In this document: positions 39,113 through 64,000 of the stretch, piece by piece
Numbering within the stretch: position 1 is the stretch's first letter
How the letters are laid out: every line of letters starts with the position of its first letter
The notes under the pieces: model-generated
Told to the model about the DNA's origin: nothing
The model's input: only the letters and a program-made list of their open reading frames with translations
The model's database searches: none
Position numbers and translations under genes: made by a program
Source: Micromonospora siamensis
GTDB taxonomy: Bacteria > Actinomycetota > Actinomycetes > Mycobacteriales > Micromonosporaceae
Assembly (NCBI RefSeq): GCF_900090305.1
Contig: NZ_LT607751.1
Coordinates: forward strand, 4,092,001-4,156,000
Length of the DNA stretch: 64,000 nucleotides
Reading direction: 5' to 3'

Positions 39113-40450
39113 TCACCGCGGCCAGTCGGCACCCCCGCCGACCAGGGCGGCCACCTCGTCGGCAACCAGCTTCGCCAGCCGGTCCAGCCCGAGGTCGATC
39201 TGGGCGGGGGTTACCGCGCTGATCGACAGGCGCAGGGCGTTCACCACGGCCCCGTCGTCGTAGAAGTGCGCCATCGGGGTCCAGAGCACGCCGTACTCCT
39301 GCGCGGACCGGTGCAGCAGCGCGTCGTCCACCCCGAACGGCACGGTCACCACCACGAAGAAACCGCCCGCCGGCGCCGTCCAGCTCACCCCCGGGAAACG
39401 GTCCGGCGGGAAGCGCCGGGCCAGGCCGTCGAGCAGGTGCCGCAGGTTCCGGGCGTACGCGGCCCGCTCCCGGGTGTTCGCCCCGGCCAGCGAGCAGCCG
39501 TGTTCCAGCAGCCGGCCGCCGATCACCGCCTGGGCGATCGGCGAGGTGTTCACCGTGACCATGCTCTTGATCTTGGCTAGCTGGTCGGCGAGCAGCCCCA
39601 CCGAGCCGTCCGGCGCGGCCACCCGCTGGTCGGCCAGCACATAACCGACCCGCGCCCCCGGCAGCACCGACTTGGCGAACGAGCCCAGATAGACCACCCG
39701 GCGCTCGGTGTCCAGGGCCTTGAGCGTCGGCGGCCGGTCGGCGTCCCCGACCGGGAAGAGGCCGTACGGGTTGTCCTCGACCAGCAGCAGCTCCGCCTCG
39801 GCGGCCGACTCCAGCAGCCGGCGCCGGTGCGCGGTGTCCATGCTGATCCCGGACGGGTTGGCGAAGTCGGGCATCACGTAGCAGGCGCGCGGGCGCAGCC
39901 CCTCGGCCCGGGCCCGGCGGACCTGCTCGGCCAGGTCGGCCAGGTCGACCCCGGCCGGACCGCCCGCCACCGGACGAACCGGCAGATCGACCAGTCGGGC
40001 CGCCCCGGTCAGCCCCACATAGGTCGGTGCCACGGCCAGCAGGACGTCGCGCGGGCCGGTGCGCAACGCCCGCAACACCAGGAACATCCCCTCCTGGCAG
40101 CCGACGGTCACCACCACCGCCTCCGGGTCGGCGGTGATCCCCTCGTCCACGGCCAGGTTACGGGCGACCAGGTGGTGGACGATGCCCTTGGTCCGGCCGT
40201 ACTGGAGCAGCGTCCGGCGTACCTGCTCCGGGCCGAGCCCCTGGTCCTCGACCAGGTGCCGGTGGAACCGGTCCAGCCAGCGGTGCAGCGCGGCGACGTC
40301 GAAGTACTCCTCGTAGGGCCGGCCGGCCGCCAGCGACACCGCGTCCGGGTAGTGCTGGGCCACCTCGTTGAGGAAGTTCATCGAGTTCAGCGCCGGGTCG
40401 TCGACCGAGGCGTGCAGGTCACCGACCGTCAGGTCCACCGGCGTCTCCAC
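39113..40450 (-). CDS. PLP aminotransferase, hydroxyphenylglycine-type (HpgT-like)
   Basis: A 445-residue fold-type I aminotransferase. It starts with NSMNFLNEVAQHYPDAVSLAAGRPYEEYF and has LQYGRTKGIVHHLVARNL, VTVGCQEGMFLVLRAL, VMPDFANPSGISM, the PLP lysine in GSFAKSVLPGARVGYVLADQ and AKIKSMVTVNTSPIAQAV. These segments are those I associate with HpgT of glycopeptide pathways, which aminates 4-hydroxyphenylglyoxylate. Last gene of the four-gene operon 43778-39113; GTG at 40450 has AGGAGG upstream and lies 3 bases after the oxidase stop. The substrate is inferred from family and neighbour. Confidence 0.78.
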   Translation of the reverse strand: METPVDLTVGDLHASVDDPALNSMNFLNEVAQHYPDAVSLAAGRPYEEYFDVAALHRWLDRFHRHLVEDQGLGPEQVRRTLLQYGRTKGIVHHLVARNLAVDEGITADPEAVVVTVGCQEGMFLVLRALRTGPRDVLLAVAPTYVGLTGAARLVDLPVRPVAGGPAGVDLADLAEQVRRARAEGLRPRACYVMPDFANPSGISMDTAHRRRLLESAAEAELLLVEDNPYGLFPVGDADRPPTLKALDTERRVVYLGSFAKSVLPGARVGYVLADQRVAAPDGSVGLLADQLAKIKSMVTVNTSPIAQAVIGGRLLEHGCSLAGANTRERAAYARNLRHLLDGLARRFPPDRFPGVSWTAPAGGFFVVVTVPFGVDDALLHRSAQEYGVLWTPMAHFYDDGAVVNALRLSISAVTPAQIDLGLDRLAKLVADEVAALVGGGADWPR

Positions 40451-40453: not shown

Positions 40454-41542
40454 TCAGCCTCCTGTCATCGTACGCAGCGCCCGGGCCGCCGCCGGGTCGG
40501 CGCAGCCGGCCAGGGTCAGCGCGTCGCGCAGCTCCGCGGCGAGCACGTCCAGCGCGGCCCGCGCCCCGGCCCGCCCGCCGGCGGCCAGCGCCCAGAGCAT
40601 CGGCCGGCCCACCAGCACCCCGTCGGCGCCCAGGGCCAGCGCCCGCAGCACGTCGGTGCCGCCGCGTACGCCGCTGTCCATCAGCACCTGACAGCGGCCG
40701 TCGACCGCCGTCACCACCTCCGGCAGCACCCGGGCGGTCGCCGGCGCGCCGTCGAGCTGCCGGCCACCGTGGTTGGAGACCACCACGGCGTCCACCCCGG
40801 CCTGCGCCGCCCGGGCCGCGTCACGCGGGTCGAGGATCCCCTTCACCAGCAGCGCAGACGTGGTCCGGGCCCGCAGCCAGTCCAGGTCTGCCCAGCTCAG
40901 GGCGGGTGCGAAGACCGCGCCGGTGTGCGCGGCGACCGCCGACACCCCGGGGACGCCGGCGTGCGCCAGGTCGTCGCGGTCGCCGGGCAGGTTCGCCGCG
41001 GCCACGTGCGGCGGCAGGGCGAAGGAGTTGCGTACGTCGCGCAGCCGCCGGCCCAGCACCGGGACGTCCACGGTCACCATCACGGCGGTGGCCCCGGCCG
41101 CCTGAGCCCGGTCCAGCAGGTCGCAGACCAGCTGCCGGTCCCGCAGCCAGTAGAGCTGGAACCAGACCGGGCCACCGGCCGCGGTGATCTCCTCGATCGG
41201 CACGCTGCTCAACGTGCTGGCCACGTACGGCACCCCGGCCTCGGCCGCCGCGGCGGCCAGCCCCGCCTCGCCGTCGGGGTGCATCAGTTGCTGGTACGCC
41301 ATCGGCGCCACCGCCACCGGCAGGGCCTGCTCCCGGCCGAGCAGCCGGGCCGTGGTGGCGGGGGTGTCGACGCCGGTGAGCACCCGGGGCAGCACCGCCA
41401 CCGCGTCCAGGGCCGCCCGGTTGGCGGCGAGCGTGGTCTCGGTGCCGCTGCCCCCGTCGATGAAGTCCCACACCGACGCCGGCAGCACGGCGCGGGCCGC
41501 CTCGGCGAAGTCGGCCAGGCTCACCGGTGCCGTGTCAGCCAT
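40454..41542 (-). CDS. FMN alpha-hydroxyacid oxidase, 4-hydroxymandelate oxidase-like (Hmo)
   Basis: A 362-residue (S)-2-hydroxyacid oxidase. It has ASVWDFIDGGSGTETTLAANR, VAPMAYQQLMHPDGE, STLSSVPIEEI, WFQLYWLRD, the catalytic H in VVSNHGGRQLDGAPA and MDSGVRGGTDVLRALALGA. The F-I/L-x-G-G-S-G-T-E start and the QLYWLRD loop resemble Hmo of the hydroxyphenylglycine pathway more than glycolate or lactate oxidase. It would oxidise an aryl-2-hydroxyacid to the 2-oxoacid for the downstream aminotransferase. Its ATG overlaps the hydrolase stop by 8 bases. Confidence 0.8.
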   Translation of the reverse strand: MADTAPVSLADFAEAARAVLPASVWDFIDGGSGTETTLAANRAALDAVAVLPRVLTGVDTPATTARLLGREQALPVAVAPMAYQQLMHPDGEAGLAAAAAEAGVPYVASTLSSVPIEEITAAGGPVWFQLYWLRDRQLVCDLLDRAQAAGATAVMVTVDVPVLGRRLRDVRNSFALPPHVAAANLPGDRDDLAHAGVPGVSAVAAHTGAVFAPALSWADLDWLRARTTSALLVKGILDPRDAARAAQAGVDAVVVSNHGGRQLDGAPATARVLPEVVTAVDGRCQVLMDSGVRGGTDVLRALALGADGVLVGRPMLWALAAGGRAGARAALDVLAAELRDALTLAGCADPAAARALRTMTGG

Positions 41543-42545
41543 CGGTGTCCGACCCGGGCCGCCCGGGGCCGGCCGGCGGCGGGTCACCCTGCCCCGCCTT
41601 GTCCACCGGGTCGGCGGCGCGCAGCCGGTAGCGGAGGAAGTCGGCGGCCTGGTCGAGGGCGCGTCCGGCCGCGTCGAAGGCGCCGGGCATGGCGAAGAAG
41701 CCGTGGATCATGCCCGGGTAGCGGGTCAGGTCGGTGAGCACGCCGGCCTCGCGCAGCCGGTCGGCGTACCGCTCGCCCTCCTCGCGCAGCGGGTCGTGCT
41801 CGGCGGTGATCACCAACGCCGGGGGCAGGCCGGCGAGGTCCTCGGCGAGCAGTGGCGAGGCCAACGGGTCGGCGGCATCCGCCGGGTCGGCCAGGTAGTG
41901 CCCGCGGTACCAGTCGACCGAGTGCCGGTTGAACAGCAACGGATCCTCCGGTCCCCCGGTGGGCGCCGGCCGCGGTCGCTGGTCGGTGTTGGGATAGACC
42001 AGCAGTTGCGCGGCGAGCTGGGGGCCGGCGTCGCGGGCGAGCAGGGTGACCGCCGCCGCGAGGTTGCCGCCGGCGCTGTCCCCGCCCACGGCCAGCCGCC
42101 GCGGGTCGGCGCCGAACTCCTCGGCGTGCCCGGCGATCCAGCTGGTCGCCGCGTGGCAGTCGTGCACGGCGGCCGGGAAGCGGTGCTCGGGGGCGAGCCG
42201 GTAGCCGACGGTGACCACCTGGCAGCCGGTGGCGTTGGCGAGCCGGCGGCAGATCCCGTCGGAGGTCTCCACGCTGCCCAGCGTCCAGCCACCGCCGAAG
42301 AACCAGACCAGGGTGGGCAGCGGGCCGTCGCCGGCCGGCCGGTACACCCGTACCGGCAGGTCGCCGCCGGGCCCGGGGACGTGGGTGTCGCGTACCTCGT
42401 GCACCGGCTCGACGGCACCGCCGCCGGCGCGGATCGCGGCCAGGTCGGCGGCGCGGGCCTCGGCCAGCGTCCGGGTGTACAGCGGTGGGACGTTGTCGGC
42501 GGCGCGGGCCGCCCGGTACGCCACCACCTGCGGGTCGAGGGACAT
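41535..42545 (-). CDS. Alpha/beta hydrolase, hormone-sensitive-lipase family
   Basis: A 336-residue esterase. The oxyanion motif is FFGGGW (the HGGG equivalent), the nucleophile elbow is GGDSAGGNLAAA, the acid is in TAEHDPLREEGERYA and the histidine in GMIHGFFAMPGAFD. An N-terminal cap is present. It lies 12 bases after the P450 stop and overlaps the oxidase start by 8 bases, so it belongs to the same operon. A role in releasing an ester or thioester intermediate is inference only. Confidence 0.88.
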   Translation of the reverse strand: MSLDPQVVAYRAARAADNVPPLYTRTLAEARAADLAAIRAGGGAVEPVHEVRDTHVPGPGGDLPVRVYRPAGDGPLPTLVWFFGGGWTLGSVETSDGICRRLANATGCQVVTVGYRLAPEHRFPAAVHDCHAATSWIAGHAEEFGADPRRLAVGGDSAGGNLAAAVTLLARDAGPQLAAQLLVYPNTDQRPRPAPTGGPEDPLLFNRHSVDWYRGHYLADPADAADPLASPLLAEDLAGLPPALVITAEHDPLREEGERYADRLREAGVLTDLTRYPGMIHGFFAMPGAFDAAGRALDQAADFLRYRLRAADPVDKAGQGDPPPAGPGRPGSDTDG

Positions 42546-43839: not shown

Positions 43840-45150
43840 TCACAGACCGAGCAGTCGCAGCGGCACGGCGTCCGCCATCGCCTGTGCGCCGGCGTCGTTC
43901 GGGTGGATGTGGTCCCCCGCGTCGTACGCGGGCAGCAGCCGGCTGGGCCGCTCCGGGTCGCGCAGCACGGCGTCGAAGTCGATCACCCCGTCGAACTCGG
44001 CCGCTCCCGCCCCGCGCAGCCACGCGTTGACGGCCTGCCGGGTGGCGTCCTTCTCCGGCGTCCACACCCCCGGGCCACCGTTGCCCTCGTAGGGGGTGAT
44101 GGTGCCAACCAGGCTGGTCAGGCCGCGGGCCTTGACCTGCTGGTTGAGCTGCCGCAGGGTGGCGATGATCGCCTCGGACGAGTCGTCGGACATCCAGATG
44201 TCGTTGATGCCCAGGTGGGTGACGACGGTCCGCACGCCGGTCTGCGGGAAGACGTCCTCGTTGAGCCGGGCCAGGGCGTTCGGGCCGAGTTCGTAGTAGC
44301 CCGGGAAGCCGCCGGCCCCGGGCTCGGTGCCCTCGTGGTTGAGCCGGTTGCCGGAGAGGCTGAGGTTGAGCACGCCGGGGGTGCGTACGTCCGGCCGCTT
44401 GTCGATCAGCCGGGCGGCGAGCAGGTCGGGCCAGCGCCGGTCGGCGTTGACGGTGCTGCCGTTGCCGTCACCGATCGAGTCGCCGAGCACCACCACCGAG
44501 CCGGGGCTCATCCGGCGTTCCACGTCGATGCCGGACAGGAACATCCAGCAGCAGTCGATCTTGCGGGTGAACTCGGTGCTGGTGGCGACCGTGGTGAGGT
44601 CGGTCTGGCCGATGAAGTTGGTGGCCCGGGCCTGGCCGTGGAAGGTGACCGGGCCGGTGAGCACCGGGAAGAACAGGGTGACGACCAGGTCCTCCTGCTC
44701 GCCGACCGGGAAGTCCAGCGGGTCGCTGACCAGCTCGGCGCCCTTGTTCATGGTGGCCGAGGTGGCCCCGTTGAAGGTCAGCTCGTGCACGGTGGTCGTG
44801 TCGATGTCGGAGCGGTCGTCCGGCGTCGTGGTGTCCGGGCGGGCCACGGTGGCGTGGCCGACCTTGACGGCCTGCTCGCCGTAGAGGTTGGACAGCCGGA
44901 TGCGGACCCGGTCGCCGCCGACGGTGGTCTGCACGTTCATCCGGATGCTCTGGTTGTTCAGGCCGGTGTTGGTCAGCCCGACGGTGTTGCCCCGGGTGAC
45001 CGCGGCGGCCCAGCTGCCCGCCCACTCGGTGCGCCCGTGCCGGGCGGCGTCCAGGTCGGCGGGGCCGGCGCTGGCGGTGACCGCGGGGGTGACCGCCACC
45101 AGCAGGGTGGCCGCGGAAGCTATGAGTTGCCATCTCTTCGGGGTCGACAT
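43840..45150 (-). CDS. Secreted SGNH/GDSL esterase
   Basis: A 436-residue secreted hydrolase. The signal peptide is LIASAATLLVAVTPAVTASA. After a beta-sandwich N-terminal domain (about 45-200) comes the SGNH core with the nucleophile in VVLGDSIGDGNGS, Gly in SLSGNRL, Asn in THLGINDIW and the final D-x-x-H in DHIHPNDAGAQAMA. ATG at 45150 has GGAGG 5 bases upstream. A TAGGTT box on the minus strand (45217-45222) could be its promoter. It is separated from the P450 operon by a hairpin. Confidence 0.9.
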   Translation of the reverse strand: MSTPKRWQLIASAATLLVAVTPAVTASAGPADLDAARHGRTEWAGSWAAAVTRGNTVGLTNTGLNNQSIRMNVQTTVGGDRVRIRLSNLYGEQAVKVGHATVARPDTTTPDDRSDIDTTTVHELTFNGATSATMNKGAELVSDPLDFPVGEQEDLVVTLFFPVLTGPVTFHGQARATNFIGQTDLTTVATSTEFTRKIDCCWMFLSGIDVERRMSPGSVVVLGDSIGDGNGSTVNADRRWPDLLAARLIDKRPDVRTPGVLNLSLSGNRLNHEGTEPGAGGFPGYYELGPNALARLNEDVFPQTGVRTVVTHLGINDIWMSDDSSEAIIATLRQLNQQVKARGLTSLVGTITPYEGNGGPGVWTPEKDATRQAVNAWLRGAGAAEFDGVIDFDAVLRDPERPSRLLPAYDAGDHIHPNDAGAQAMADAVPLRLLGL

Positions 45151-45481
45151 TGAACCTCCATCGTGGGCAGCCCGGGGCGCCACCCATTGACGGCGCCGTC
45201 CGGACGATGGGTCAGAAACCTAGCCGCCGGTCGTGACGAGCGTCAATCGACCTGATCGACGTGATCAAATGTCCTGGGGGCGGGGTGGCACACCGTTCGG
45301 ACCCTGTGCCCGGTCGGCGCGGCCCGCCTAGGCTCGCAACCGGCGGCGGTGCGGTCGCCGTTCGGCGCACCCTTCGTCGCGCCCGGCTCCGGCCTGCCCG
45401 CCGCGTTCCCGGCGGTCGGCCGTAGGGCCCTGACCAGGGCGTACGCCGGTTCCGGTGGCACGTCGACGAAAGGGGCGCGCG
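45151..45481. other. Divergent intergenic region
   Basis: A 331-base interval between the SGNH and CoA-ligase genes. It contains a TAGGTT -10-like box for the SGNH gene (45217-45222, minus) and a TAGGCT box (45329-45334, plus) that would give the ligase a leader of about 140 bases. No gene is seen in it. Confidence 0.4.
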
Positions 45482-47080
45482 ATGACCGACCGACCGAGCT
45501 CGTACGTACACCGGGCGTTGGAGCTGTTCGCCGGGTTCGGCGACCGGGAGGCGCTGGTGGGCGACGGCCGCCGGCTGACCTACGCCGACGTGGCCGCGGA
45601 GGTCCGGGCGACCGCCGCGGCCCTGCACGGGCTGGGGGTCCGGCCGGGCGGCGCGGTGCTGGTGATGCTCGGCAACGCCGTCGAGGGGCCCCTGGTGCAG
45701 CTCGCCCTGCACCTGCTCGGGTGCCGGACGATGTGGATCGCGCCGGTGACCTCCCGCCGGGAGATCGACGAGTTCGTCCGGTTGGCCGCCCCGGAGTCGT
45801 TCCTCTACGACGCGCGCACCGGGGACGGGCTGGGCGCGGAGCTGGCCGCCGGGCTGGCCGGCACGCCGGTGTTCCGGCTCGGCGGCGACGGACCGGGCGT
45901 GGACCTGGTCGCCGAGGTGGCCGCGCGGCTGGCGGCCGGTCCCGTCGCGGACCCGGCGGAGGGCCCGGCGCCGGAGTCGTTCCTGCAGACCAGCGGGACC
46001 ACCGGCACGCCGAAGCTGGTGCACCACCGGCAGAGCTTCTACGACCAGATCCTGGTGCTGGCCGCCGAGTTCCGGGCGGCCGGCTTCCCGCTGCTGCGGC
46101 ACCTGTCCCACTCCCCGATGTGGCTGGCCAGCGGCCAGATCACCACCCTGTTCAACCTCTTCACCGGCGGCGTGCTCTTCCTGCGCCAGCGGTGGGATCC
46201 GGCGGCGTTCGTCGCCACGGTGCCGGCCGAGCGGATCAACTCGACCTTCGTCACCCCGCCGATGCTCTACGAGGTGCTCGACCATCCGACGCTGGACGGC
46301 GCCGACTTCTCGACCATGTTCATGTTCAACGTGGGCGCGGGGCCCGCGGCGCCGGCCCGGCTGCGCCAGGCGATCGCCCGCTTCGGCCCGTGCCTGCGCA
46401 TCGTGTACGGGCTCAGCGAGGCCGTGGTGATCTGCGCGCTGCCCGGCCTGACCGACGACCCGGAGCACCCGGAGCGGCTGCGCGCCTGTGGCCGGCCGTA
46501 CGGGGACGTGGCGGTGGAGATCCGCGACGCCGACGGCTCGGTGCTGCCGACGGGGGTCGACGGCGAGGTGTGGGTGCGGACCAAACTGAGCTTCGCCGGC
46601 TACCACGGCCAGCCGGAGCTGACCGCCGAGACCCTGGTCGACGGCTGGGTACGCACCCGCGACGTCGGCCACCTGGACGCCGACGGCTACCTGTACCTGG
46701 TGGACCGGCTGGCCGACCGGATCCTGACCCGGCAGCGCAGCTGGCCGATCTACTCCCGCCCGGTCGAGGACGTGCTGGCGGGGCATCCGCAGGTGCGGGC
46801 GGCCGCGGTGATCGGGGTGCCGGACCCGGTGGCCGGTGAGCTGCCGTACGCGTACGTGGTGCCGGCTCCCGGCGCCACGGTCGACGGGGACGAGCTGATC
46901 GCGCTGGTGACCGCCGAACTGAGCGAGACCTGGGCGCCCGGTGCGGTGGAGTTCGTCGACGAGCTGCCGTTGAACCGGTCGGCCAAGGTGGACAAGCTCG
47001 CCCTGCGGGCCCGGTACGCGGCCACCCACGGCGAGGACGGCCGGCCGCTGACCGGGGCGGCGATCGGCAGCCCGGCGTGA
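45482..47080 (+). CDS. AMP-forming acyl/aryl-CoA ligase
   Basis: A 532-residue ANL-superfamily ligase. A3 is QTSGTTGTPKLVHH, A5 is IVYGLSEAVV, A7 is RTRDVGHLDADGYLYLVDR and the A10 lysine is in NRSAKVDKLALRAR. The A8 hinge reads RILTRQRSWPIYSRPVED, lacking the usual GG/GE-x-I-x-P-x-E form, though the ligase fold is otherwise complete. It activates a carboxylate as acyl-AMP then CoA thioester, or loads a carrier. It overlaps the MFS gene by GTGA, linking activation to export. Confidence 0.88.
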   Translation: MTDRPSSYVHRALELFAGFGDREALVGDGRRLTYADVAAEVRATAAALHGLGVRPGGAVLVMLGNAVEGPLVQLALHLLGCRTMWIAPVTSRREIDEFVRLAAPESFLYDARTGDGLGAELAAGLAGTPVFRLGGDGPGVDLVAEVAARLAAGPVADPAEGPAPESFLQTSGTTGTPKLVHHRQSFYDQILVLAAEFRAAGFPLLRHLSHSPMWLASGQITTLFNLFTGGVLFLRQRWDPAAFVATVPAERINSTFVTPPMLYEVLDHPTLDGADFSTMFMFNVGAGPAAPARLRQAIARFGPCLRIVYGLSEAVVICALPGLTDDPEHPERLRACGRPYGDVAVEIRDADGSVLPTGVDGEVWVRTKLSFAGYHGQPELTAETLVDGWVRTRDVGHLDADGYLYLVDRLADRILTRQRSWPIYSRPVEDVLAGHPQVRAAAVIGVPDPVAGELPYAYVVPAPGATVDGDELIALVTAELSETWAPGAVEFVDELPLNRSAKVDKLALRARYAATHGEDGRPLTGAAIGSPA

Positions 47081-48303
47081 CGCCGCGCCGCCAGCTCTAC
47101 ACCCTGGTCGGCGCGGACCTGATCACCAACCTGGGCACCCGCATCTCGATCGTGGCCATCCCCTGGCTGGTGCTGGAGACCACCGGCAGTCCGACGAGGA
47201 TGGGGCTGGTGGCCGCCGCGGAGGCCCTGCCGTACATGCTCTCCAGCGCGCTGGCGACCCCGTGGGCCGACCGGTTCGGGGTGCGCCGTACCTCGATCGT
47301 GGTGGACGCGGCGAGCGCGGCGGTGGTGGCGGTGGTGGCGCTCGCCCCGTGGTTGGGGTTCGGCGCGCTGGTGGCCCTGGTGGCGGTGGCCGGCGCGCTG
47401 CGTGGCATCGGCGACCGGGTGAAGCACGTGATGTTCCGGCCGGCCGCCCAGCGGGCGGGGGTGCCGCTGATCCGGTTGACCTCCGCCTACGACGGGCTCA
47501 GCCGGGGCATCACCCTGTTCGGGGCGGTGCTCGGGGGCCTGCTCATCGACTGGGTGGGGGTGACCCGGGCGATCTGGATCGACGCCGGCACCTTCGCGGT
47601 CTGCGCGCTGATCGTCGCGCTGCTGGTGCGCCCGGCGACGGTGGCGGCGGAGCCGGCGCCCCGGGAGCCGTACCTGGCGGCGCTGCGCGGCGGCTTCGCT
47701 CACCTGCGCACCGACCGGTCGCTGCTGACCATGCTGCTGGTGGTGTCGGCGTTGAACCTGTTCGCCAACGCCAGCATCGCGGTCTACATCCCGCTCTGGG
47801 TGGCCGAGGTGCTGGCCGACCCGGCGGGGATCGGGCTGCTGCTGGGGGTCTTCGCCGGCGGGGCCCTGCTGGGGAACCTGTTGTTCACCGTGGTCGGTCC
47901 GCGGCTGCCGCGCCGGCTGCTGTTCGCCCTCGGGGTGGCGTTGAGCGGCACGCCGCGGCTGCTGGCGCTGGCGCTCTCCGACCGGCTGGCGGTGGTGGTG
48001 ACGGTGACGTTCCTGTCCGGGGTGGCGATCGCCGCGGTGAACCCGCTGCTGGGGGCGGCGCTCTACGAGCGGGTGCCGGAGGCGCTGCAGACTCGGGTGC
48101 TGGGGATCGCCGGTTCGGTGGCCTTCCTGGGCCTGCCGGTGGGCGCGCTGCTCGGCGGCGCGTCGGTGGACCTGTTCGGGTTCACCCCGGCGCTGCTGGG
48201 GATGTCGGTGGCCTGCGTGCTGCTGACCGTCGTGCCGCTGGCCGCCGTCGGGGACACCGAGCGCCGCCCGGCGGCGCAGCCGGCGGAGCCCTCGCGGGTA
48301 TGA
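47077..48303 (+). CDS. MFS transporter
   Basis: A 408-residue major-facilitator protein with about twelve helices. The first is LVGADLITNLGTRISIVAIPWLVL, and the loop 2-3 region reads ATPWADRFGVRRTSI, a form of the G-x-x-x-D-R-x-G-R-R motif. The tail is Pro/Ala-rich. Its GTG start overlaps the ligase stop (GTGA), so the two form a coupled pair. It probably exports a small molecule, perhaps the product of the neighbouring ligase or P450 operon. Confidence 0.88.
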   Translation: MTPRRQLYTLVGADLITNLGTRISIVAIPWLVLETTGSPTRMGLVAAAEALPYMLSSALATPWADRFGVRRTSIVVDAASAAVVAVVALAPWLGFGALVALVAVAGALRGIGDRVKHVMFRPAAQRAGVPLIRLTSAYDGLSRGITLFGAVLGGLLIDWVGVTRAIWIDAGTFAVCALIVALLVRPATVAAEPAPREPYLAALRGGFAHLRTDRSLLTMLLVVSALNLFANASIAVYIPLWVAEVLADPAGIGLLLGVFAGGALLGNLLFTVVGPRLPRRLLFALGVALSGTPRLLALALSDRLAVVVTVTFLSGVAIAAVNPLLGAALYERVPEALQTRVLGIAGSVAFLGLPVGALLGGASVDLFGFTPALLGMSVACVLLTVVPLAAVGDTERRPAAQPAEPSRV

Positions 48304-54821: not shown

Positions 54822-54873
54822 CCCTAGTTTCCGACCCTCGATCCCCGCCCCCGAGGATCCGTCGGACAGGACC

Positions 54874-54879
54874 TAGCCT
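54874..54879 (+). promoter_or_regulatory. -10 box (TAGCCT) of the HAD hydrolase gene
   Basis: TAGCCT is followed by 7 bases and the ATG at 54887. Confidence 0.45.
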
Positions 54880-54886
54880 CGACGCC

Positions 54887-55528: not shown

Positions 55529-55959
55529 CTCCCGAGTCCCTCCACAGTCGCGCTGAGGGACCGGCCTACCCGCCCACCGGCCGCCCACACAACGCGGAGA
55601 CGGGCCTCCGGGCTGCGCGAATTCGCGGGCGGGATCGAGCCGACCGACGCCCTGCCAACCACACGGGCGGCGCTGCGTCGCGCCCTGATGATCCGTGCCG
55701 TCCATATCGCAGATCGGCGGGTCCGTCGCAAGGGTTCGGCAAGGACGCCGCAAGGAATCGGCAGGGCGCGGTCGCCAGGATCAGACCTGTGCCTCTCGAC
55801 GGGGCCGAATCGATGGGGGCCCTGGGGCTCCGCGGGCAGGCCCGCGGATCGGAGTGCCGGGGCCGGCCGAGGAGGGAGAGGGAAATGGGCGGGAAATGGC
55901 TGTCGGCCATGGGGCTCAACTCAGGGATGGTCCCTGGAACCACAAAGCGAGGAGGAAGC
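55529..55959. other. Intergenic region upstream of the I36-like gene
   Basis: 431 bases. It contains a palindrome CCGCGGGC-AG-GCCCGCGG at 55830-55847 and the ribosome-binding site of the next gene. I see no convincing gene, although several frames are open. Confidence 0.35.
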
Positions 55960-56370: not shown

Positions 56371-56732
56371 ATGAGTCATCCCGACGCTCCGATGGATGCC
56401 GAGCTCCGCCAGCCCTGTCGGTGGCGGAGCTCGGCCCCCTTTCGGCCGGAGCACCCGCCGGGGCGGCGGTGAGCCGTACTGGACGAGCCAGCTCTCGGCC
56501 AATCCGATCGGTGGTGTGGTCCGACAGCTGATGTGCGACGCACGTCAAGTCCGGCCGCTGCCGAGCGGCTTCCGCCCGTGTCCACACCTTCTGAACCGTG
56601 CGGCTGTCCAGCCACCCGGTACAGCCGAGCCGGCTGACGAACACCAGTAGCGAGCGGCAGCCGACAGGCCGAGCGGGTCACGGCGGCCACCAACGCCGGC
56701 CGACAGCGGTCTTGATCTTTGCAGGGCAGGGG
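56371..56732. other. Stretch without an assigned gene
   Basis: 362 bases, including the terminator at 56398-56435. A minus-strand frame from a GTG at 56644 (SRLGCTGWLDSRTVQKVW, then RPDLTCVAHQLSDHTTDRI) has some protein-like character but runs into the terminator without family similarity. Confidence 0.3.
56398..56435 (+). terminator. Hairpin terminator after the I36-like gene
   Basis: GCCGAGCTCCGCCA and TGGCGGAGCTCGGC form a perfect 14-bp stem with a 10-base loop, followed by CCCCTTT. Confidence 0.75.
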
Positions 56733-57290
56733 CTAGAGCTTTCCGGATGGTTGGACGGTCCGGTGGCCCAACCGGTTGGACACGGCGGCGACGAAGCCAG
56801 GGTCGAGCATGGGCCAGTTCCAGAACTCGAACCCCAGGTACCCGAAGCCCCAGGGCGGGCTCCATCGCCACTCGTTGATGCCGACAGGCTCGCCGCAGTG
56901 TCCGCATGCGCGCACGCCGGTCCCACCCATGCACCACTCGTCGACGACCGGTGAGAAGTCGCTCCAGGAGTCTCGATCCTGATCGTCCACCACGACCGCC
57001 TCGCAGCGGGGGCAGACGACCTGGTCGACGCCCATCGAGTAGAACACCGACTGCCCCGTCACCACGCGGAACCCGTTGGTGGCAAGTCCGGGCAGGTCGT
57101 CACAGGGTTCGACGGTCGCAGCGGCGTAGTCGGGTCCGGGCCGGTGCCCATGGTCGCCGAGGATGCAGAGCGTCGGTTCGGCCGCGACGATGCCCTGCTC
57201 GACCAGCCACGACAGCACCTCGGCCCCCAGCTGGTCAGCCTCTTCAGGGGTCGCTTCGATGTCGGCGATGGTTTCGAACCATTCGCTCAC
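56733..57290 (-). CDS. Zinc-ribbon hypothetical protein
   Basis: A 185-residue acidic protein. Two CxxC knuckles (QVVCPRCEAVV and VRACGHCGEPVG) suggest one zinc ribbon; aromatic-rich WRWSPPWGFGYLGFEFWNWP follows. The N-terminal half, WFETIADIEATPEEADQL, is helical. Similar proteins occur in actinobacteria without known role. GTG at 57290 has GGAG upstream. Confidence 0.7.
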   Translation of the reverse strand: MSEWFETIADIEATPEEADQLGAEVLSWLVEQGIVAAEPTLCILGDHGHRPGPDYAAATVEPCDDLPGLATNGFRVVTGQSVFYSMGVDQVVCPRCEAVVVDDQDRDSWSDFSPVVDEWCMGGTGVRACGHCGEPVGINEWRWSPPWGFGYLGFEFWNWPMLDPGFVAAVSNRLGHRTVQPSGKL

Positions 57291-57578
57291 CGCTCACTCC
57301 CTCCGCGCACCGTCAGGGGGACATCCTGACAGCAACGACGGACACCAACGGACTCGACAGGACCGAGCGGGACGCCGACCGGCATGCGACAAGCGCAGAG
57401 GCCGTCGGCCCCCTCGCCGAGGCGACGGACCAGAGGGTCTGACCTGGCAACCACGCGGGGAAGCCACCCGCGCGAACGGAACCGGACGACCCCGGACCGG
57501 TCCAGGTGTCGAGAGCGTGGCGGCCAGGCCGAGGCGGACTTTGCCGAACGGCTGCGGAGTGGTCTCGGGGATCCCCCG

Positions 57579-58061
57579 TCAACCGGTCGGATGCAGGGCC
57601 ACCCGGACGGCTTCCTCGGGACTGCCGACGTGCTGTGGACCGGGCACCGGTCCACCGTCGACGTCGAGGACGCGCCAGCCGCCGAGGACCACCACCGGGA
57701 TGCCACCGCGCCGCACCGCGAGGGCCACCTCGCTGAGGGTGCCCCACGAGCCGCCGACGGCGATCACCGCGTCGGCGCTCCACACCAGCACCGCGTTGCG
57801 CGCCTGCCCCATGTTCGTCACCACGCTCGCCGAGACGTCGGCGGGACCGGGGTCGGAGCCGTCGTCGGGGCGTACCCCGATCACCAGGCCGTCACGGGAC
57901 CGGGCGCCGGCGGCGACCGCGGCCATCACCCCGCCACCATCTCCGCACAGGACGGTGACACCCCGCTCGGCGAGCAACTCCCCCACCCGCCGGGCGTACG
58001 CTACCTCGGTCGCCGTCGCGTCCGCCGGCCCGCAGACCGCCACCTGCACACTGGCCTCCAT
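57579..58061 (-). CDS. SLOG/LOG-like Rossmann protein (TIGR00725 type)
   Basis: A 160-residue nucleotide-binding protein. VAVCGPADATATEVAYARRVGELLAERG, LCGDGGGVMAAVAAGARSRDG and VGGSWGTLSEVALAVRRGGIP match the SLOG family, whose members include cytokinin-activating LOG enzymes and DprA-like sensors. The catalytic Lys-Arg/PGGxGTxxE form of true LOGs is replaced by GGSWGTLSE. ATG at 58061 has GACAAT 7 bases upstream. Confidence 0.82.
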   Translation of the reverse strand: MEASVQVAVCGPADATATEVAYARRVGELLAERGVTVLCGDGGGVMAAVAAGARSRDGLVIGVRPDDGSDPGPADVSASVVTNMGQARNAVLVWSADAVIAVGGSWGTLSEVALAVRRGGIPVVVLGGWRVLDVDGGPVPGPQHVGSPEEAVRVALHPTG

Positions 58062-58068
58062 TCTCGGC

Positions 58069-58074
58069 ATTGTC
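58069..58074 (-). promoter_or_regulatory. -10 box (GACAAT) of the SLOG gene
   Basis: GACAAT on the minus strand, 7 bases before the ATG at 58061. Confidence 0.4.
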
Positions 58075-58241
58075 CCCCGCGCCCGGGCAGATGGTCGGCA
58101 GGTGGTCGCGTCCCTGGGAGATGCCGGCGCCCGGATGGCCACGCATCGTCGGCCGCCCGCCGCCGGGAAGGGTCGGGCGGGTCGCACCGCAGGCCGTCCG
58201 CTCGCCCCGTCCGGACGCTGCCGGGCGGGCCGCCCATCGGC

Positions 58242-58247
58242 TACCGT
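58242..58247 (+). promoter_or_regulatory. -10 box (TACCGT) of the cytosolic SGNH gene
   Basis: TACCGT is followed by 7 bases and the ATG at 58255. Confidence 0.4.
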
Positions 58248-58254
58248 GCCGGAC

Positions 58255-58938
58255 ATGGCATCGACGCTTACCGAATCGACGGACCCCTTCTGCCTGCGCT
58301 GCGGGGAGAGCGCCGAGCTGCTGCGCGGGCATCCGTGGCGGCGGTTCGTGGTGCTGGGCGACAGCGTGGCCGAGGGGCTGTGCGAGCCGGTCGACGGCTA
58401 CCCGGACCTCCAGTGGGCGGACCGGATCGCCGCCGAGCTGACCGCCGCCCGCCCCGGCCTGGCGTACCTGAACCTGGGCCGGCGCGGGCTGCGGGCGCAC
58501 GAGGTCCGCGCGGCGCAACTGGCCCCGGCGCTGGCCTTCGGCCCCGACCTGGCGTTGGTGGTCTGCGGCGGCAACGACGCGTTCAGCCGGGCGTACGACC
58601 CGGACGCGGTCGACGCGGAGCTGGCCGCGATGATCGGCGAGCTGCGGGCGGCCGGCGCCGAGGTGATCACGGTCGGCATGTTCGACGTCTCGCACAGCCC
58701 GGCCGTGCCGCCCGCCCTGCGCGCCGGCCTGGGCGAGCGGATGCGCCTGCTGGCCGACCGCACGGCCGCGCTGGCCGACCGGCACGGCGCCCTGCACGTG
58801 CACCTCACCGACCATCCGCTGGTCGCCGACCCGTCGCTCTACAGCAGCGACGGCCGGCACGGCAGCGCCCGCAGCGACGCCATCGCCGCGGCGGAGACCG
58901 TCCGCCGCCTCGGCGCCCGCCTCACCGCGGGCCGCTGA
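58255..58938 (+). CDS. Cytosolic SGNH/GDSL hydrolase
   Basis: A 227-residue esterase without signal peptide. A C-x-x-C pair (FCLRCGESAEL) precedes the domain. The nucleophile is in FVVLGDSVAEGL, Gly in LNLGRRGL, Asn in VVCGGNDAFS and the closing D-x-x-H in SSDGRHGSARSD. Substrate unknown. The ATG at 58255 follows a leaderless -10 box. Convergent with the ATP-grasp gene across a GTTGA-type hairpin. Confidence 0.88.
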   Translation: MASTLTESTDPFCLRCGESAELLRGHPWRRFVVLGDSVAEGLCEPVDGYPDLQWADRIAAELTAARPGLAYLNLGRRGLRAHEVRAAQLAPALAFGPDLALVVCGGNDAFSRAYDPDAVDAELAAMIGELRAAGAEVITVGMFDVSHSPAVPPALRAGLGERMRLLADRTAALADRHGALHVHLTDHPLVADPSLYSSDGRHGSARSDAIAAAETVRRLGARLTAGR

Positions 58939-59023: not shown

Positions 59024-60376
59024 TCAGTCGGTGAGGAGGATGCCGGAAAGGAGGACACCTCGGGCGAGGTTGAGGACCTCGTCGCAGCCGGGGTAGCCGA
59101 CCCGGGCCAGGGCGCCCGAACCGGTGCGGCCGAACAGGTACGGGGCCAGGCTGTACGGGACCTCGGCGGTGACGGTCTCCCCGGTCTCGATCTGCACGAA
59201 GTCCATCGGCACCCGGTCGGCGTGGTGGTAGCGCTGCAGGATGTTCCCGCCCGCCTCGATGGCGGCGCGTACGCCGTCCTCCCAGGCGATCGGGCTCAGC
59301 TCCCGGCCGATGAGCACGCCGTGCCCGGCGGAGCCACCGGCCGGCTTGGCCACCAGGTCGTGCTGTTCGGCGAGGGCCCGGTCGAGCTGGTCGGCGGTGA
59401 GCACCACGGTGTGCGGGACGTACCGGCGGACCAGGGTGCGGTCCGCCTCGGCCAGCTGGTCGAGGTCCGCCCAGAGCCAGGCGAAGTTCACCTTGTTGCC
59501 GAGCAGCCAGGCGGCGGCGCTGACGAACATCGGCAGGGTGCCCGCGGCGAGCGCCCCGGCGACGGCGTCCAGGCCGGCGCTGGGGGTGACCCGGTTGGGC
59601 ACGAAGAGCCGGAACAGCGCGTCCACCGGCGCGCCGTCGACCACCAGCCGCCGCCGGTCGTCGAGGGCGGCCGCGGAGACCGGCCCGATGACCAGGTCGA
59701 TGCCGAAGTTCCGGGCCTGGTCGGCCAGCGGGGAGAGGATCCGGACGAACGTCTCCGGGTCGTCCAGGCCGGGATAGTCGGCGTCGAAGTCCATCAGCAG
59801 CGCCACCCGCGCGCCGTCGGGCAGGTCGAGGGTCTGCCGGATGGCGACGAACCGCTGGTCGAGCAGGGAGGGCGCGGGGTGCGCGCCGTCGAGCAGGCCG
59901 CGGTCGGCGTAGAGCTGCGCGTACCGCTGGATGACCGTGTCGGCGTCGAAGCCGCCGCCGAGGCTACTGTCGATGTTGTACTCGACGATGCACGGCGCCC
60001 CGCCGGAGAAGAGCACATCCGGCCGGTACGCGGCGAGCAGCCCCTCGTGCAGCGGCTCGTCCTCGTCGAGCAGCTTCGTCTCCCCCTGCGGCACGTCCAG
60101 CAGCCGGCGCAGCTCCCCGGCGGTGCCGGCCCGCCGCTGGCACGCCTCCAGGATGAGCTGGGCGATCCGGTCGCAGACCTCGTTGAGCTCACGGAACGCG
60201 TCGGCGGTGAACACCGGCGGCCGGGCCAGCCGCCACTGCTTGTTGTAGGTGGCCCGACCGTGGAAGACCTGCTCCCAGGCGGCGGCGCCGGCCGCCACCA
60301 TGCCGGTACGGGTCGCCTCGGGCAGCTGCGCCCACGCCTGGCCGAGGGGCGGCCACGAGTACTCCGGATCGATCAT
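59024..60376 (-). CDS. ATP-grasp-like protein
   Basis: A 450-residue protein. CIVEYNIDSSLGGGF (about 129-143) and HDLVAKPAGGSAGHGVLIGREL (about 342-363) resemble the E-x-N-x-D-S and the K-P-x-x-G-x-x-G-x-G segments of circularly permuted ATP-grasp ligases (glutathionylspermidine-synthase type). It would couple a carboxylate to an amine or thiol through acyl phosphate. Last gene of the five-gene operon ending here; its ATG overlaps the E1beta stop (ATGA). Assignment rests on motifs only. Confidence 0.6.
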   Translation of the reverse strand: MIDPEYSWPPLGQAWAQLPEATRTGMVAAGAAAWEQVFHGRATYNKQWRLARPPVFTADAFRELNEVCDRIAQLILEACQRRAGTAGELRRLLDVPQGETKLLDEDEPLHEGLLAAYRPDVLFSGGAPCIVEYNIDSSLGGGFDADTVIQRYAQLYADRGLLDGAHPAPSLLDQRFVAIRQTLDLPDGARVALLMDFDADYPGLDDPETFVRILSPLADQARNFGIDLVIGPVSAAALDDRRRLVVDGAPVDALFRLFVPNRVTPSAGLDAVAGALAAGTLPMFVSAAAWLLGNKVNFAWLWADLDQLAEADRTLVRRYVPHTVVLTADQLDRALAEQHDLVAKPAGGSAGHGVLIGRELSPIAWEDGVRAAIEAGGNILQRYHHADRVPMDFVQIETGETVTAEVPYSLAPYLFGRTGSGALARVGYPGCDEVLNLARGVLLSGILLTD

Positions 60377-61347
60377 GATGCGTCCTTCATGCTCAGTTGG
60401 ATGGCGGCGGTGAGCTGGTCCCGCCCCGGCTGCACGGCCCGGTCCAGGGCCGGTGCGAAGGGCAGCACCGCGCCGTCGGGGCGGGTGACCCGCCGGGGCG
60501 GGGCGGCCAGCCGCACCCGTTCCAGCACGCTGGTGATGATCTCGGCGGCGATGCCACAGGACCGGTTGGAGTCGTCCACGACCACCAGCCGCCCGGTGCG
60601 CGACACCGAGTCGACCAGCCCGTCGACGTCGAACGGGTAGAGGGTGCGCGGGTCGAAGACCTCCACCGACACCTGGCCGGCAAGCTCCTCGGCCACTGCC
60701 AGCGCGTCGTGCACCAGGTGCCCGACCGCGACCACGGTGACGTCGTCACCGGCCCGGCGCACGACACCGAGGCCCAGCGGAACCGGGGCCAACCCGGCCA
60801 GGTCCACGTCGTCCCGGACGTCCAGCGCACCGGCCGGGGCGAAGACCACCACCGGGTCGTCGCAGCGAATCGCCGACACCAGCAGCCCGTACGCGTCGGC
60901 CGGGGTGGCCGGCACCACCGTGGTCACCCCGACGTGGGCGAAGAGGCTGTACGGGTGGTCGGAGTGCTGCCCCGCCCAGCCGGTCCGCGACCCGGAACCG
61001 GGCACCAGGTAGGTGACCGGCACCGCGCACTGCCCGCCGGTCATCAGCGGGAACTTGTGCGCGTGGTTGACGATCTGCTCGAAGACCAGGAACAGCAGCG
61101 ACGGGATCTGGAACTCGATCACCGGCCGCAGCCCGGCCAGGGCCGCCCCGGTGGCGAAGCTGGTGAACGCCTGCTCCGACAGCGGGGTGTCGATCACCCG
61201 CTCCGGCCCGAACCGCTTGAGCAGCCCGGCGGTGACGTTCGAGGCGGCCACCCGGATGTCCTCGCCGAGCAGGAAGACGTCGGAGTCGCGGGCCAGCTCG
61301 TCGGCGAGCGCCCGGGTGAGCGCCTTGCGGTACGACAACCTGGGCAT
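60373..61347 (-). CDS. TPP-dependent dehydrogenase-type E1 beta subunit (biosynthetic context)
   Basis: A 324-residue E1beta. SYRKALTRALADELARDSDVFLLGEDI, RVIDTPLSEQAFTSFATGAALAGLRPVIEF, QHSDHPYSLFAHVGVTTVVPATPADAYGLL and DPRTLYPFDVDGLVDSVSRTGRL are canonical. It pairs with E1alpha immediately upstream (TGATG overlap). Unlike the bkd genes at 25-27 kb, no E2 follows; the next gene is ATP-grasp-like. It may therefore act as a stand-alone carboligase or decarboxylase. Confidence 0.9.
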   Translation of the reverse strand: MPRLSYRKALTRALADELARDSDVFLLGEDIRVAASNVTAGLLKRFGPERVIDTPLSEQAFTSFATGAALAGLRPVIEFQIPSLLFLVFEQIVNHAHKFPLMTGGQCAVPVTYLVPGSGSRTGWAGQHSDHPYSLFAHVGVTTVVPATPADAYGLLVSAIRCDDPVVVFAPAGALDVRDDVDLAGLAPVPLGLGVVRRAGDDVTVVAVGHLVHDALAVAEELAGQVSVEVFDPRTLYPFDVDGLVDSVSRTGRLVVVDDSNRSCGIAAEIITSVLERVRLAAPPRRVTRPDGAVLPFAPALDRAVQPGRDQLTAAIQLSMKDAS

Positions 61348-62315
61348 CAGCCACCTCCGGTTCGGGCGACCAGCCCGCTGGCGTACAGGTGGTCCAGGGC
61401 GCCGGCCGGGTCCGGGTGCGGGCCGGCGAGGGCGAACTCCACCGCCGCCGCCAGCGTCGCCTCGACCTCGGCGTCGACCTTGGCGCGCCGGTCGGCGGGG
61501 AGCCGGGCGCCCTGGATCACCACCGGATCCCGCTCCCGACCGGCCGCCACCTCCTGCGGCGGGCGGTAGTCGAGGCGTACCGAATGTTCGAAGGTGTGGT
61601 GGGCGTCGAAGCGGTAGGTGCGGGCCTCGACCAGCTCGGGGCCGCCGCCGGCGCGCATCCGCGCGACGGCCGCGGCGGTGACGTCGCGTACCGCCTCGGG
61701 GTCCTGGCCGTCGACGACGGCGGCCGGCATGCCGAACGCCTCGGCCCGGCCGGTGATGGTGCCGGCCACCGCGCCCCGCACGGGCATGGTGGTGGCGTAG
61801 CCGTTGTTCTCGCAGACGAACAGCACCGGCACCCGCCAGAGCGCGGCCAGGTTGAACGCCTCCAGCAGCATCCCCTCGTTGACCGCGCCGTCGCCGAAGA
61901 AGGTAGCCCCGACCACGTCGTCGTCGCGCCGCCGGCGCGCCCACACCGCCCCGGTGAGGATCGCGCCGGCGGCCCCGACGATCGCGTTGGCGCCGAGCAC
62001 CCCGACCGAGAAGTCGGCGGCGTGCATCGACCCGCCCCGGCCCCGGTTCGACCCGGTCTCCCGACCGCACAGCTCGGCCATCGTCCGGGCCGGGTCGGCG
62101 CCCTTGGCGAGCACGTGGCCGTGCCCGCGGTGGGTGCCGGTGACCAGGTCCGTCGGCCGCAGCGCCGCGCACACCCCGGCGGCGATCCCCTCCTGCCCGA
62201 GGTACGGGTGGATGCCGCCGACGATGTGCCCGGAGCGGACCAGCTCGATCGCCCGCTCCTCGAACCGGCGGATCAGCCGGACCGTCCGGTAGAGCCGGAC
62301 CGGGTCGTCGGTCAC
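61347..62315 (-). CDS. TPP-dependent dehydrogenase-type E1 alpha subunit (biosynthetic context)
   Basis: A 322-residue E1alpha of the acetoin/pyruvate type. [60 protein letters not shown], and the TPP motif [22 protein letters not shown]...ENN are present. GTG at 62315 overlaps the DUF3050 stop as GTGA. The absence of E2 and E3 in the operon argues against an ordinary dehydrogenase complex; E1 pairs in some antibiotic pathways transfer a two-carbon unit instead. Confidence 0.9.
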
Positions 62316-63109
62316 CGGTCGCGCCCCTCCTTGACGGCCGCCAGGATGTCGTCCCAGAGCCGGGCCCGGGCGGTGAGCGCCAGGTTGACCGTGTCGGCGC
62401 ACTCCTGCCACTTGACGTCGTCGTCGCCGCACAGGTCGGCGAGCATCTGCATGGCCATCGGGGTGTGCTGCTCCCCGTCGACCTCGATGTGCCGCTCCAG
62501 GTAGTCGACGAAGGTGTGCAGCCGGCGGCTGCGTTCGTTGACCGCGACGACCTGGGTGAACATGTCGGGGATCAGGTCCTCGCGGCCGAAGGCGAACGCG
62601 GCGGCCTGGCAGTGCACCGGGGTCGACTCGATGATCTGCCAGGTGGTGGCGGCGAACCGGGCCGACGGTGCGGGCACGCCGGCCGCGGCCAGCGCCTCGG
62701 TGACGCCGGTGCCGGCGCGCAGCAGCTCGATCAGCGCGTCCACGGCGGTGGTGTCGGCGCCGGCCTCCCGCATGCCCCGCACGTAGAGCTCGAAGTGGCT
62801 GATGTAGCCCTCGCCGAGCTCGTCGCTCTCCTCCACCATCACGATGTCGTTGATCAGCCGGCGGCTGCCGGTCGGGCCGGTGGGGATCCACGGCACGGTC
62901 ACGCAGGTCAGCTGCCGCTGCAACGACTTCAGCAGGGACATGAAGTCCCAGACCGCGAAGACGTGGTGCTCCATGAAGGTGACCAGCGACTCGTGGGTGT
63001 CCAGGTTGGCGTAGAGCGGGTGCTGCACGACCGCTTCGCGGCGGTCGGTCACCGCCTGCTCCAGCCGCTCGATGCCCGGGTGGGTCCTTCCCCAGTCGTA
63101 CCGTGACAT
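62312..63109 (-). CDS. DUF3050 haem-oxygenase-like (probable diiron) protein
   Basis: A 265-residue helical protein matching DUF3050: [30 protein letters not shown] (47-61), [34 protein letters not shown] and [17 protein letters not shown] (about 204-220). Histidines and acids at E47/H48, E93-D96, H105, E205, H207, D211 and H215 could build a non-haem diiron site of the HDO superfamily. Such enzymes cleave C-C bonds or oxidise amines using O2. It lies 2 bases after the PhyH stop and overlaps the E1alpha start. Confidence 0.8.
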
Positions 63110-63111
63110 GT

Positions 63112-64000
63112 TCAGCCTCCCTGCGCGGCGCGGTGGCGCCAGATGACCGGGCAGTATTCGGGGTCCGCGTAGTCCGGCCGCCCGTCGTGGGTGCGGCGGA
63201 CCAACGCGTCGTGGTTGTAGCCGGCGAGGGTGCCGTCGGAGAGCGGGTACTCCCGCCAGGCGTTGTCGCCGTCCTGCAGGTGCAGCGAGATCGCCCGGCG
63301 GGGGCGGCCGCTGACGTTCGCGCCGCTGCCGTGGTAGGTGCGGCAGTGGTGGAAGGACATGTGGCCCTTCGGGATCACCATCGGGACCTTGCGGATCTGC
63401 GCGCCGTTGTGGGCCGCGTTCTCGGCCAGCATCTCCTCCAGCTGGTCGCGGTCGCGGTCGGCGAAGTGCCGCACCACGGTGTCGTCCGCGCCGATCTCGG
63501 ACCACCGGTGCGAGCCGTCGACCATGGTGATGGTGCCCATCTCCTCCCCGCAGTCGTGGAACGGGATGAAGGCGGTGAGCATCTTCTCCGACGACGAGGA
63601 CGCCCAGTAGTGCTTGTCGAAGTGCCAGGGCACGATGTTCGACGGCTCGCCGGAGATCGGCGGTTTCCAGATCAGCGTGGACTGGAAGACCCGGATCTCG
63701 TCGGCCCGGGCCAGCCGGGCGGCGACCGCCCCGATCAGCGGCTTGCGCAGGATCGCGCCGATCGCGTCGTGCTCGTGGTGCACGTAGTCGTTGTGCCGCT
63801 GCACGTCGCCCTTGGACGGGTCCCAGTACGCCAGCTTCGGCGGGCGTACCGGCAGCCGCCGGTCGCGGTCCCCGGCGTAGTAGCGGTCGGTGGCGGCGAC
63901 CAGGGCGTCCACCTCGTCGTCGGTGAGCAGCTTCTTCGACAGGTACCAGCCGTGCTCGGCGTAGTGCCGCACGTCGGTGTCGGAGGGAAGCAGCTCCTGC
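63112..64000 (-). CDS. PhyH-type Fe(II)/2-oxoglutarate dioxygenase (5' end outside window)
   Basis: The visible 296 codons run to the right edge with the frame still open, so the start is beyond it; a GTG at 63972 is internal in my view because in-frame coding continues upstream ([20 protein letters not shown] in outline). Iron ligands are H and D in [10 protein letters not shown] and the distal H in [17 protein letters not shown], with Arg for 2-oxoglutarate. [26 protein letters not shown] is the PhyH core. It hydroxylates or halogen-free oxidises a small molecule; substrate unknown. First visible gene of the operon. Confidence 0.85.

Follow-up and report, generated by a model that had tools for sequence, protein, structure and literature searches.

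Several described pathways bear on the formation of nitrogen-nitrogen (N-N) bonds. The ava and cma genes, for avenalumic acid and p-coumaric acid, are described in PMC10777205; Tri17 (8TF7/9BQ0) is proposed to activate nitrite by adenylation, and HamA and/or HamE are listed as putative N-N formers (PMC11705231); the genes for HamA and for its homologue PvfA are part of clusters of the diazeniumdiolate type; and in kinamycin and fosfazinomycin one nitrogen derives from nitrous acid (PMC6133997), CreE/CreD homologues being used in kinamycin (PMC10477347). We analysed a 64,000-nucleotide stretch of the Micromonospora siamensis genome (the window, G000:C1:4092001-4156000; the genome is a single contig of 6.25 Mb), at the right end of which lie five genes for a PhyH-type dioxygenase, a DUF3050 protein, the E1 alpha and beta subunits of a dehydrogenase-type enzyme, and an ATP-grasp-like protein. 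A sequence-only reading had called them an uncharacterised oxidative biosynthetic operon, and our results support this: all five open reading frames (ORFs) were confirmed on the minus strand from the ORF list, and the tight junctions follow from the ORF coordinates (two were also checked in the sequence letters). The five genes are real and their order is kept, but they are not the whole unit; they form the 3′ end of a longer operon or cluster (Table 1).

We consider it probable, with considerable room for doubt, that this orphan cluster directs the synthesis of an aryl polyketide with an N-N bond (diazo, or derived from a diazonium) that is linked through amide bonds to 4-hydroxyphenylglycine or a relative. 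By homology and synteny, the HmaS, Hmo, and aminotransferase homologues would convert 4-hydroxyphenylpyruvate to 4-hydroxyphenylglyoxylate and hydroxyphenylglycine (Hpg); an aryl or acyl acid, again by homology, would be loaded on a starter acyl carrier protein (ACP) and extended by a system of the ava/cma type, with a ketosynthase (KS) and a chain length factor (CLF). The DUF3050 di-iron enzyme, judging by its family, may N-oxidise and help supply the second nitrogen, and a CmaA6/Tri17-type ligase with ATP would activate nitrite or an equivalent, giving the N-N bond (as family and tree suggest). The ATP-grasp-like protein and an McbA-like synthetase would close amides, and in Micromonospora and Salinispora, going by synteny, an aromatic type II polyketide synthase (PKS) would add a further polyketide part. 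For PhyH and the E1 pair, tailoring of the acid or consumption of the glyoxylate is no more than a guess; so, for the E1 pair in particular, is use of hydroxyphenylglyoxylate or acyl-anion transfer to an activated nitrogen. A literature search, whose reach left out most subscription papers, recognised no publication describing this cluster.

The diazotase homologue and the conserved gene block

Past the right edge of the window, eight further genes continue head-to-tail upstream of PhyH (their starts are our choice), with overlaps of 1-8 bases at six of the eight junctions and spacings of about 61 and about 90 bases at the other two; PhyH itself starts 44 bases outside the window and overlaps the next upstream gene by 4 bases. 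Extending the contig thus overturns the earlier statement that no nonribosomal peptide synthetase (NRPS) or PKS was visible, since type II PKS genes lie right of the edge; the annotated cluster genes showed no NRPS. A small PKS-free metabolite is ruled out by the ketosynthases, ACPs, adenylating enzymes, and aromatic type II PKS found there. The earlier count of two oxygenases overlooks the HmaS-like dioxygenase past the edge, and the diazotase homologue was missed as well.

That homologue, AMP1, is assigned by sequence as a putative diazotase of the CmaA6/Tri17 type. Its structural model (mean predicted local distance difference test score, pLDDT, 83) has 42% identity to CmaA6 and 36% to Tri17, the other listed rows having 19-25%; the NCBIfam AvaA6 diazotase model gives it 504 bits, and the next model 143. 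In a tree of 29 rows (rooted for drawing only), the 13 rows from the block form a clade (100/100) that is sister to CmaA6 and Tri17 (99/100). Against an N-N-forming role stand the AvaA6 equivalog cut-off, which lies far above the AMP1 score (975 vs. 504 bits), and another close PDB relative, 9xb8/9xbs (280 bits), labelled as the fatty-acid-CoA ligase FadD. Both points, and membership of the AMP-binding family, would fit an AMP1 whose function has shifted to the usual activation of acyl or aryl groups, with a plain aryl-polyketide amide of hydroxyphenylglycine as product and DUF3050 performing C-oxidation in the manner of UndA and BesC, which are among its fold neighbours. We regard this as improbable: the tree places AMP1 beside CmaA6 and Tri17, CreE/CreD-like pairs flank the family in seven of the 16 places read, and DUF3050 recurs beside other N-N machinery.

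The same tree position lends itself to a further alternative, in which the diazotase removes an aryl amine via the diazonium, leaving a product without an N-N bond, and PhyH together with the E1 pair converts hydroxyphenylglyoxylate to a starter of the 4-hydroxybenzoyl type. CmaA6 acts in such a deaminating pathway (PMC10777205), and the glyoxylate would be obtainable through the HmaS and Hmo homologues. We hold this unlikely: the PF01959 family is absent from the genome, none of the annotated genes was recognisable as AvaA7-like (no search was aimed at AvaA7), and a hydroxyphenyl group is on hand already without deamination. We take PF01959 to be the family of AvaH, the enzyme for 3,4-AHBA (3-amino-4-hydroxybenzoic acid); its absence led us to reject a 3,4-AHBA starter (AvaI was not searched), and it also weighs against the N-N reading, as do the facts that no amine for diazotisation was identified and that the annotated genes showed neither a ketoreductase nor a dehydratase. 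Akazaoxime was rejected as the product, having been assigned to a different PKS/NRPS cluster, and genome G237 as an ava-like reference: homologues of KS, ACP, and ligase lie near PF01959 there, yet the AMP1 matches are no better than 27-31%. Two other settings of AMP1 relatives were observed: a second homologue in genome G133 (L101:9179-18788; 58-59% identical), with glycosyltransferase, ABC transporter, and FAD monooxygenase genes, and a cremeomycin-like set (L087:419-6988) of an O-methyltransferase, a diazotase homologue, and CreD-like and CreE-like genes.

Conservation was counted over DUF3050 loci from named genomes (the best 80 of 508 relatives, several loci ending at contig ends), and the gene-order counts consider query genes only, so that other genes may intervene (for example, an O-methyltransferase in nine loci). 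The order 4-hydroxyphenylpyruvate dioxygenase (HPPD)-PhyH-DUF3050-E1 alpha-E1 beta is kept in 70 of the 80 loci, which excludes a chance association; it is kept in 58 with the ATP-grasp-like gene included, and the twelve-gene order from the acyl-ACP ligase to E1 beta is intact in 59. Taken singly, HPPD-like and PhyH genes are present in 76 loci each, E1 alpha in 74, E1 beta in 73, AMP1 in 69, and the ATP-grasp-like gene in 59; the last was not found in the other 21, some of them cut by contig ends. One locus (L103) holds the block through PhyH and lacks both DUF3050 and E1, which counts against the N-N reading. The nearest named relative is Micromonospora mirobrigensis, with a DUF3050 protein 98% identical. 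Block-type DUF3050 occurs in 66 of 121 genomes of the genus (any match in 67), so a possibly reactive, uncharacterised metabolite may be common in this much-mined group; across the phylum it is rare (two of 396 sampled genomes).

KS2 has the Cys-His-His set, and in KS3 an Asn replaces the expected first His; in the starter ACP (ACPb), Ser33 and Trp38 are each found in 59 of 59 rows and His41 in 58. Our guess is that KSn is the counterpart of AvaB. Beyond AMP2 there are genes for a small multidrug-resistance protein and a phosphotransferase-like protein, then KSbeta, KSalpha, a cupin, an ACP-cyclase fusion, and carboxylase subunits; a BTAD regulator and a cyclase, both divergent, close off the genes listed. 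The first two genes lie between AMP2 and KSbeta in L002:15944-17563, and M. mirobrigensis (L004) has both as well; in L102 and L114, which lack them, KSbeta is about 0.5-0.8 kb from AMP2. KSalpha is 8-13 kb from KS2 in 18 of the 19 Micromonospora and Salinispora genomes, and in G008 the two are on separate contigs (by hand). Outside these genera, in the block-bearing genomes G020-G034 and G036, no KSalpha at least 57% identical was found near the block on its contig among the matches listed (by hand), so the block appears to be a module in its own right that has become linked with an aromatic PKS in a single lineage.

DUF3050 as a possible source of nitrite

DUF3050 in this locus is a predicted di-iron enzyme, with putative iron binding and N-oxidation. 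The closest solved structure to its model is HamA (38% to PDB 9vwb), and all six di-iron ligands named in PMC4520260 are present (E93, H105, E177, H207, D211, and H215), which bears out the haem-oxygenase-like fold assigned to it earlier; the model has a mean pLDDT of 80, falling below 50 over residues 69-100, E93 included. The six ligands are invariant in 25 aligned rows, and among eleven further homologues ligand loss was seen in one (L117:9856-10647, without E93, E177, and H207). Dob3-type hydrazone oxidation was rejected as a model, Dob3 being a ferritin-like AurF relative and not a DUF3050 protein.

We think it possible, but doubtful, that enzymes of the DUF3050/HamA type take the place of the CreE/CreD pair as a so far overlooked supplier of nitrous acid or as an N-O donor; in that case, acylation of the activated nitrogen could fall to the E1 pair. 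CreE-like and CreD-like are our own labels for PF13454 and Lyase_1 pairs beside diazotase homologues, made without reference CreE/CreD sequences. In the M. siamensis genome, two CreE-like queries gave no match at E ≤ 1e-15 (CreD was not searched genome-wide), which led us to reject nitrite from a CreE/CreD pair elsewhere in the genome and which also weighs against the N-N reading. CreE-like genes are found in none of 84 loci with a DUF3050 match (pieces of the M. siamensis genome included) and in none of nine further loci.

DUF3050 occurs in four N-N settings: the present block, L068, a cassette in L077, L122, and L123, and the ham/mgo/pvf clusters. L068:3263-11874 is a compact cluster with a BTAD regulator, an AMP-ligase, an FAD amine oxidase, an AMP1-like gene, DUF3050, and an ATP-grasp-like gene; DUF3050 directly follows the AMP1-like gene, where the related L105 has CreE-like and CreD-like genes. 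L104, the nearest AMP1 relative of L068, has neither CreE-like gene nor DUF3050 within 10 kb. In L077:5533-13148, L122:7822-15359, and L123:7287-14785, DUF3050 lies within a hydrazine cassette of the kinamycin/lomaiviticin type (lyase-amidase-glutamine synthetase-DUF3050-protein of 630/666 residues), a likeness judged by eye from the sequences of three enzyme types and their mutual similarity; KSalpha is near the cassette in L077 and, for G472, in L126. The cassette genomes (G035, G472, and G488) and that of L068 (G1136) have no CreE-like match. Distant DUF3050 homologues were also seen beside weak cupin-like and AMP-binding matches, reminiscent of ham clusters (L118:7982-12005 and L121:8095-13034).

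Read within about 10 kb, 16 of 17 AMP1-family places (G179 left out) have a CreE-like gene in seven cases, DUF3050 in three, both in none, and neither in six. We rejected mutual exclusion as proof: zero overlap is expected by chance at about 15% (84/560), the block counts share ancestry, CreE-like genes are usually absent, and the two co-occur elsewhere. Several observations speak against DUF3050 as the nitrite source. The six places with neither gene (L101, L103, L104, L108, L109, and L110) are among them, as is the distribution of the CreE-like gene, which is present in 18 of 121 genomes and absent from 103, with DUF3050 also in 11 of the 18. A CreE-like match, mostly distant in sequence, occurs elsewhere in 14 of 31 DUF3050-bearing genomes; in a set of 32 genomes, mostly chosen for DUF3050, 15 have such a match and 14 of these also block-type DUF3050. 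On the contig of the block the match is never closer than about 90 kb (by hand). Nitrite can also be taken up from the medium or formed by reduction of nitrate, and the nitrogen that DUF3050 oxidises could instead be that of the acceptor. An mgoB mutant still makes mangotoxin, slightly less of it, which argues against an essential role for the DUF3050 protein MgoB, encoded in the mgo operon, in that system. HamA (PvfA) and HamE are reported as non-essential for hydroxylamine intermediates (PMC11659414); hamA is not one of the genes that proved dispensable for the valdiazen signal.

The cluster hints at, but does not prove, an origin not yet recognised for the nitrite-like nitrogen on which N-N pathways depend. 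Being conserved and recurring in N-N clusters, DUF3050 is a direct, testable candidate for it. The main text of PMC8154892 does not mention DUF3050.

The putative hydroxyphenylglycine module and the operon enzymes

The left-hand module spans 39.1–48.3 kb of the window and was found with a Phytohabitans FMN dehydrogenase and its aminotransferase as queries in eight genomes; among the more than 80 loci, homologues of the former occur in seven and of the latter in nine. By homology, the HmaS, Hmo, aminotransferase, P450, and amide synthetase homologues would make up a complete hydroxyphenylglycine route, and enzymes of this type support the earlier proposal of amino-acid-derived chemistry. Hmo scores 381 bits to a solved 4-hydroxymandelate oxidase, with the next natural families at 272 or below, and the best match of the HmaS-like protein is PCZA361.1 (308 bits), presumably the HmaS of A. 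orientalis. Other matches weigh against these assignments: the HmaS-like protein clears the 4HPPD model (343 vs. 277 bits) and its second PDB match, 7yvv (283 bits), bears the label HPPD; for Hmo, a 736-residue chain annotated as L-lactate oxidase scores as high as hydroxymandelate oxidase; and the aminotransferase has no HpgT-specific match.

The Hmo and aminotransferase genes adjoin in all eight genomes, about 3-18 kb from the block (distances worked by hand). This tells against chance neighbourhood of two or three unrelated clusters (the Hpg genes, the ava-like block, and the aromatic PKS), an account that the KSalpha results outside Micromonospora and Salinispora would favour and that we rate as the least likely. 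HmaS within the block would complete the Hmo/aminotransferase pathway, and several Salinispora, Kribbella, and Micromonospora loci have the major facilitator superfamily (MFS), amide synthetase, and GDSL genes no more than a few kb from the ATP-grasp-like gene; in the window, about 10.7 kb separate the MFS exporter from that gene. Most of this interval (48382-58200, about 10 kb) holds trypsin-like protease, HAD-like, and SLOG protein genes, whose relatives are near the block in only four to eight of the 80 loci. A GDSL-type hydrolase gene (58230-58938) faces the adjoining ATP-grasp-like gene; with a homologue in 32 of 80 loci, it is a possible member of the cluster.

The PhyH, DUF3050, E1 alpha, and E1 beta labels all hold at curated thresholds. 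The E1 pair misses the curated pyruvate dehydrogenase E1 models (272 vs. 394 bits and 232 vs. 321), and the annotated cluster genes include no E2/E3 partner. The ATP-grasp call on the fifth gene stands as a tentative label: the YheC/D match reaches 22.1 bits against a cut-off of 26.8, and a 14-row profile reaches at best a putative glutathionylspermidine synthase (E=0.0013). The gene is single-copy here, and five Kribbella-type loci (L050, L056, L059, L060, and L066) carry two or three copies in tandem; the Hpg-type module, the two amide formers, and the tandem ATP-grasps point to an acyl-(hydroxyphenylglycine) amide whose length varies.

Table 1. Genes of the cluster and of the left-hand module (window positions unless marked genome).
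Feature	Position	Strand	Remarks
Aminotransferase, class I/II, HpgT-like by context	39113..40450	-	adjoins Hmo
Hmo, homologue of FMN-dependent 4-hydroxymandelate oxidase	40454..41587	-	
Alpha/beta hydrolase, LipP1 family esterase	41535..42545	-	
Cytochrome P450	42558..43778	-	
GDSL-type acylhydrolase	43840..45183	-	
Adenylating enzyme	45455..47080	+	nearest amide bond synthetases (8pyy, McbA 6sq8/6h1b)
MFS exporter	47077..48303	+	
ATP-grasp-like ligase (tentative), predicted amide former	59024..60376	-	sub-threshold YheC/D match
E1 beta subunit, thiamine diphosphate (ThDP)-dependent 2-oxo-acid dehydrogenase type	60373..61347	-	Transket_pyr + Transketolase_C
E1 alpha subunit (E1_dh)	61347..62315	-	E=6e-62; GDG...NN ThDP motif
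DUF3050 (PF11251), haem-oxygenase-like predicted di-iron protein, HamA homologue	62312..63109	-	E=2e-97
PhyH-type Fe/2-oxoglutarate dioxygenase	63112..64000	-	E=3e-24; HxD, distal H, R
HmaS-like (hydroxymandelate-synthase-like) dioxygenase	genome 4156041-4157138		directly upstream of PhyH
KS2 ketosynthase	genome 4157200-4158453		upstream of HmaS-like gene
AMP1, ATP-dependent diazotase homologue	genome 4158450-4160066		
KSn, KS-like	genome 4160063-4160575		
KS3, CLF-like KS	genome 4160572-4161675		
ACPa and ACPb	between KS3 and AMP2		
AMP2, acyl-ACP ligase	genome 4162282-4163682		most upstream listed gene of the operon

Comparison with known systems

The orphan Micromonospora cluster t2pks-2 (PMC9967187), whose product could not be predicted, resembles the present one in having an ACP-cyclase fusion ahead of KSalpha; diazotase, DUF3050, and Hpg genes go unmentioned in the available part of that paper. 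In the kinamycin/lomaiviticin/fosfazinomycin comparison, L077, L122, and L123 have DUF3050 inside the glutamine synthetase-amidase-lyase set, whereas no such hydrazine cassette was recognised in the present cluster. The ham/mgo/pvf clusters (fragin, valdiazen, and relatives) share DUF3050, as HamA/MgoB and the HamA homologue PvfA, and in the available text no CreE/CreD is named for them; they combine an NRPS with an AurF-type N-oxygenase, where the present cluster has a diazotase homologue and a type II PKS. With the glycopeptide Hpg module it shares HmaS, Hmo, and aminotransferase homologues, found here with a type II PKS and free-standing amide formers, and with no NRPS among the annotated genes.

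The ava/cma likeness was established by family and residue match, CmaA6 being the sole ava/cma sequence compared. It comprises an acyl-ACP ligase, two ACPs, a KS, a CLF-like KS, and a diazotase homologue, AMP2, the ACPs, KS2, KS3, and AMP1 corresponding by family, and roughly by order, to A1, A2/A3, A4, A5, and A6; Trp38 and His41 of the starter ACP are the residues reported for CmaA3 (PMC10777205). The differences are that the KS follows the diazotase here, that the genome is without PF01959 and a CreE-like gene, and that the M. siamensis cluster adds the HmaS-like, PhyH, DUF3050, E1, and ATP-grasp-like proteins and the Hpg module.

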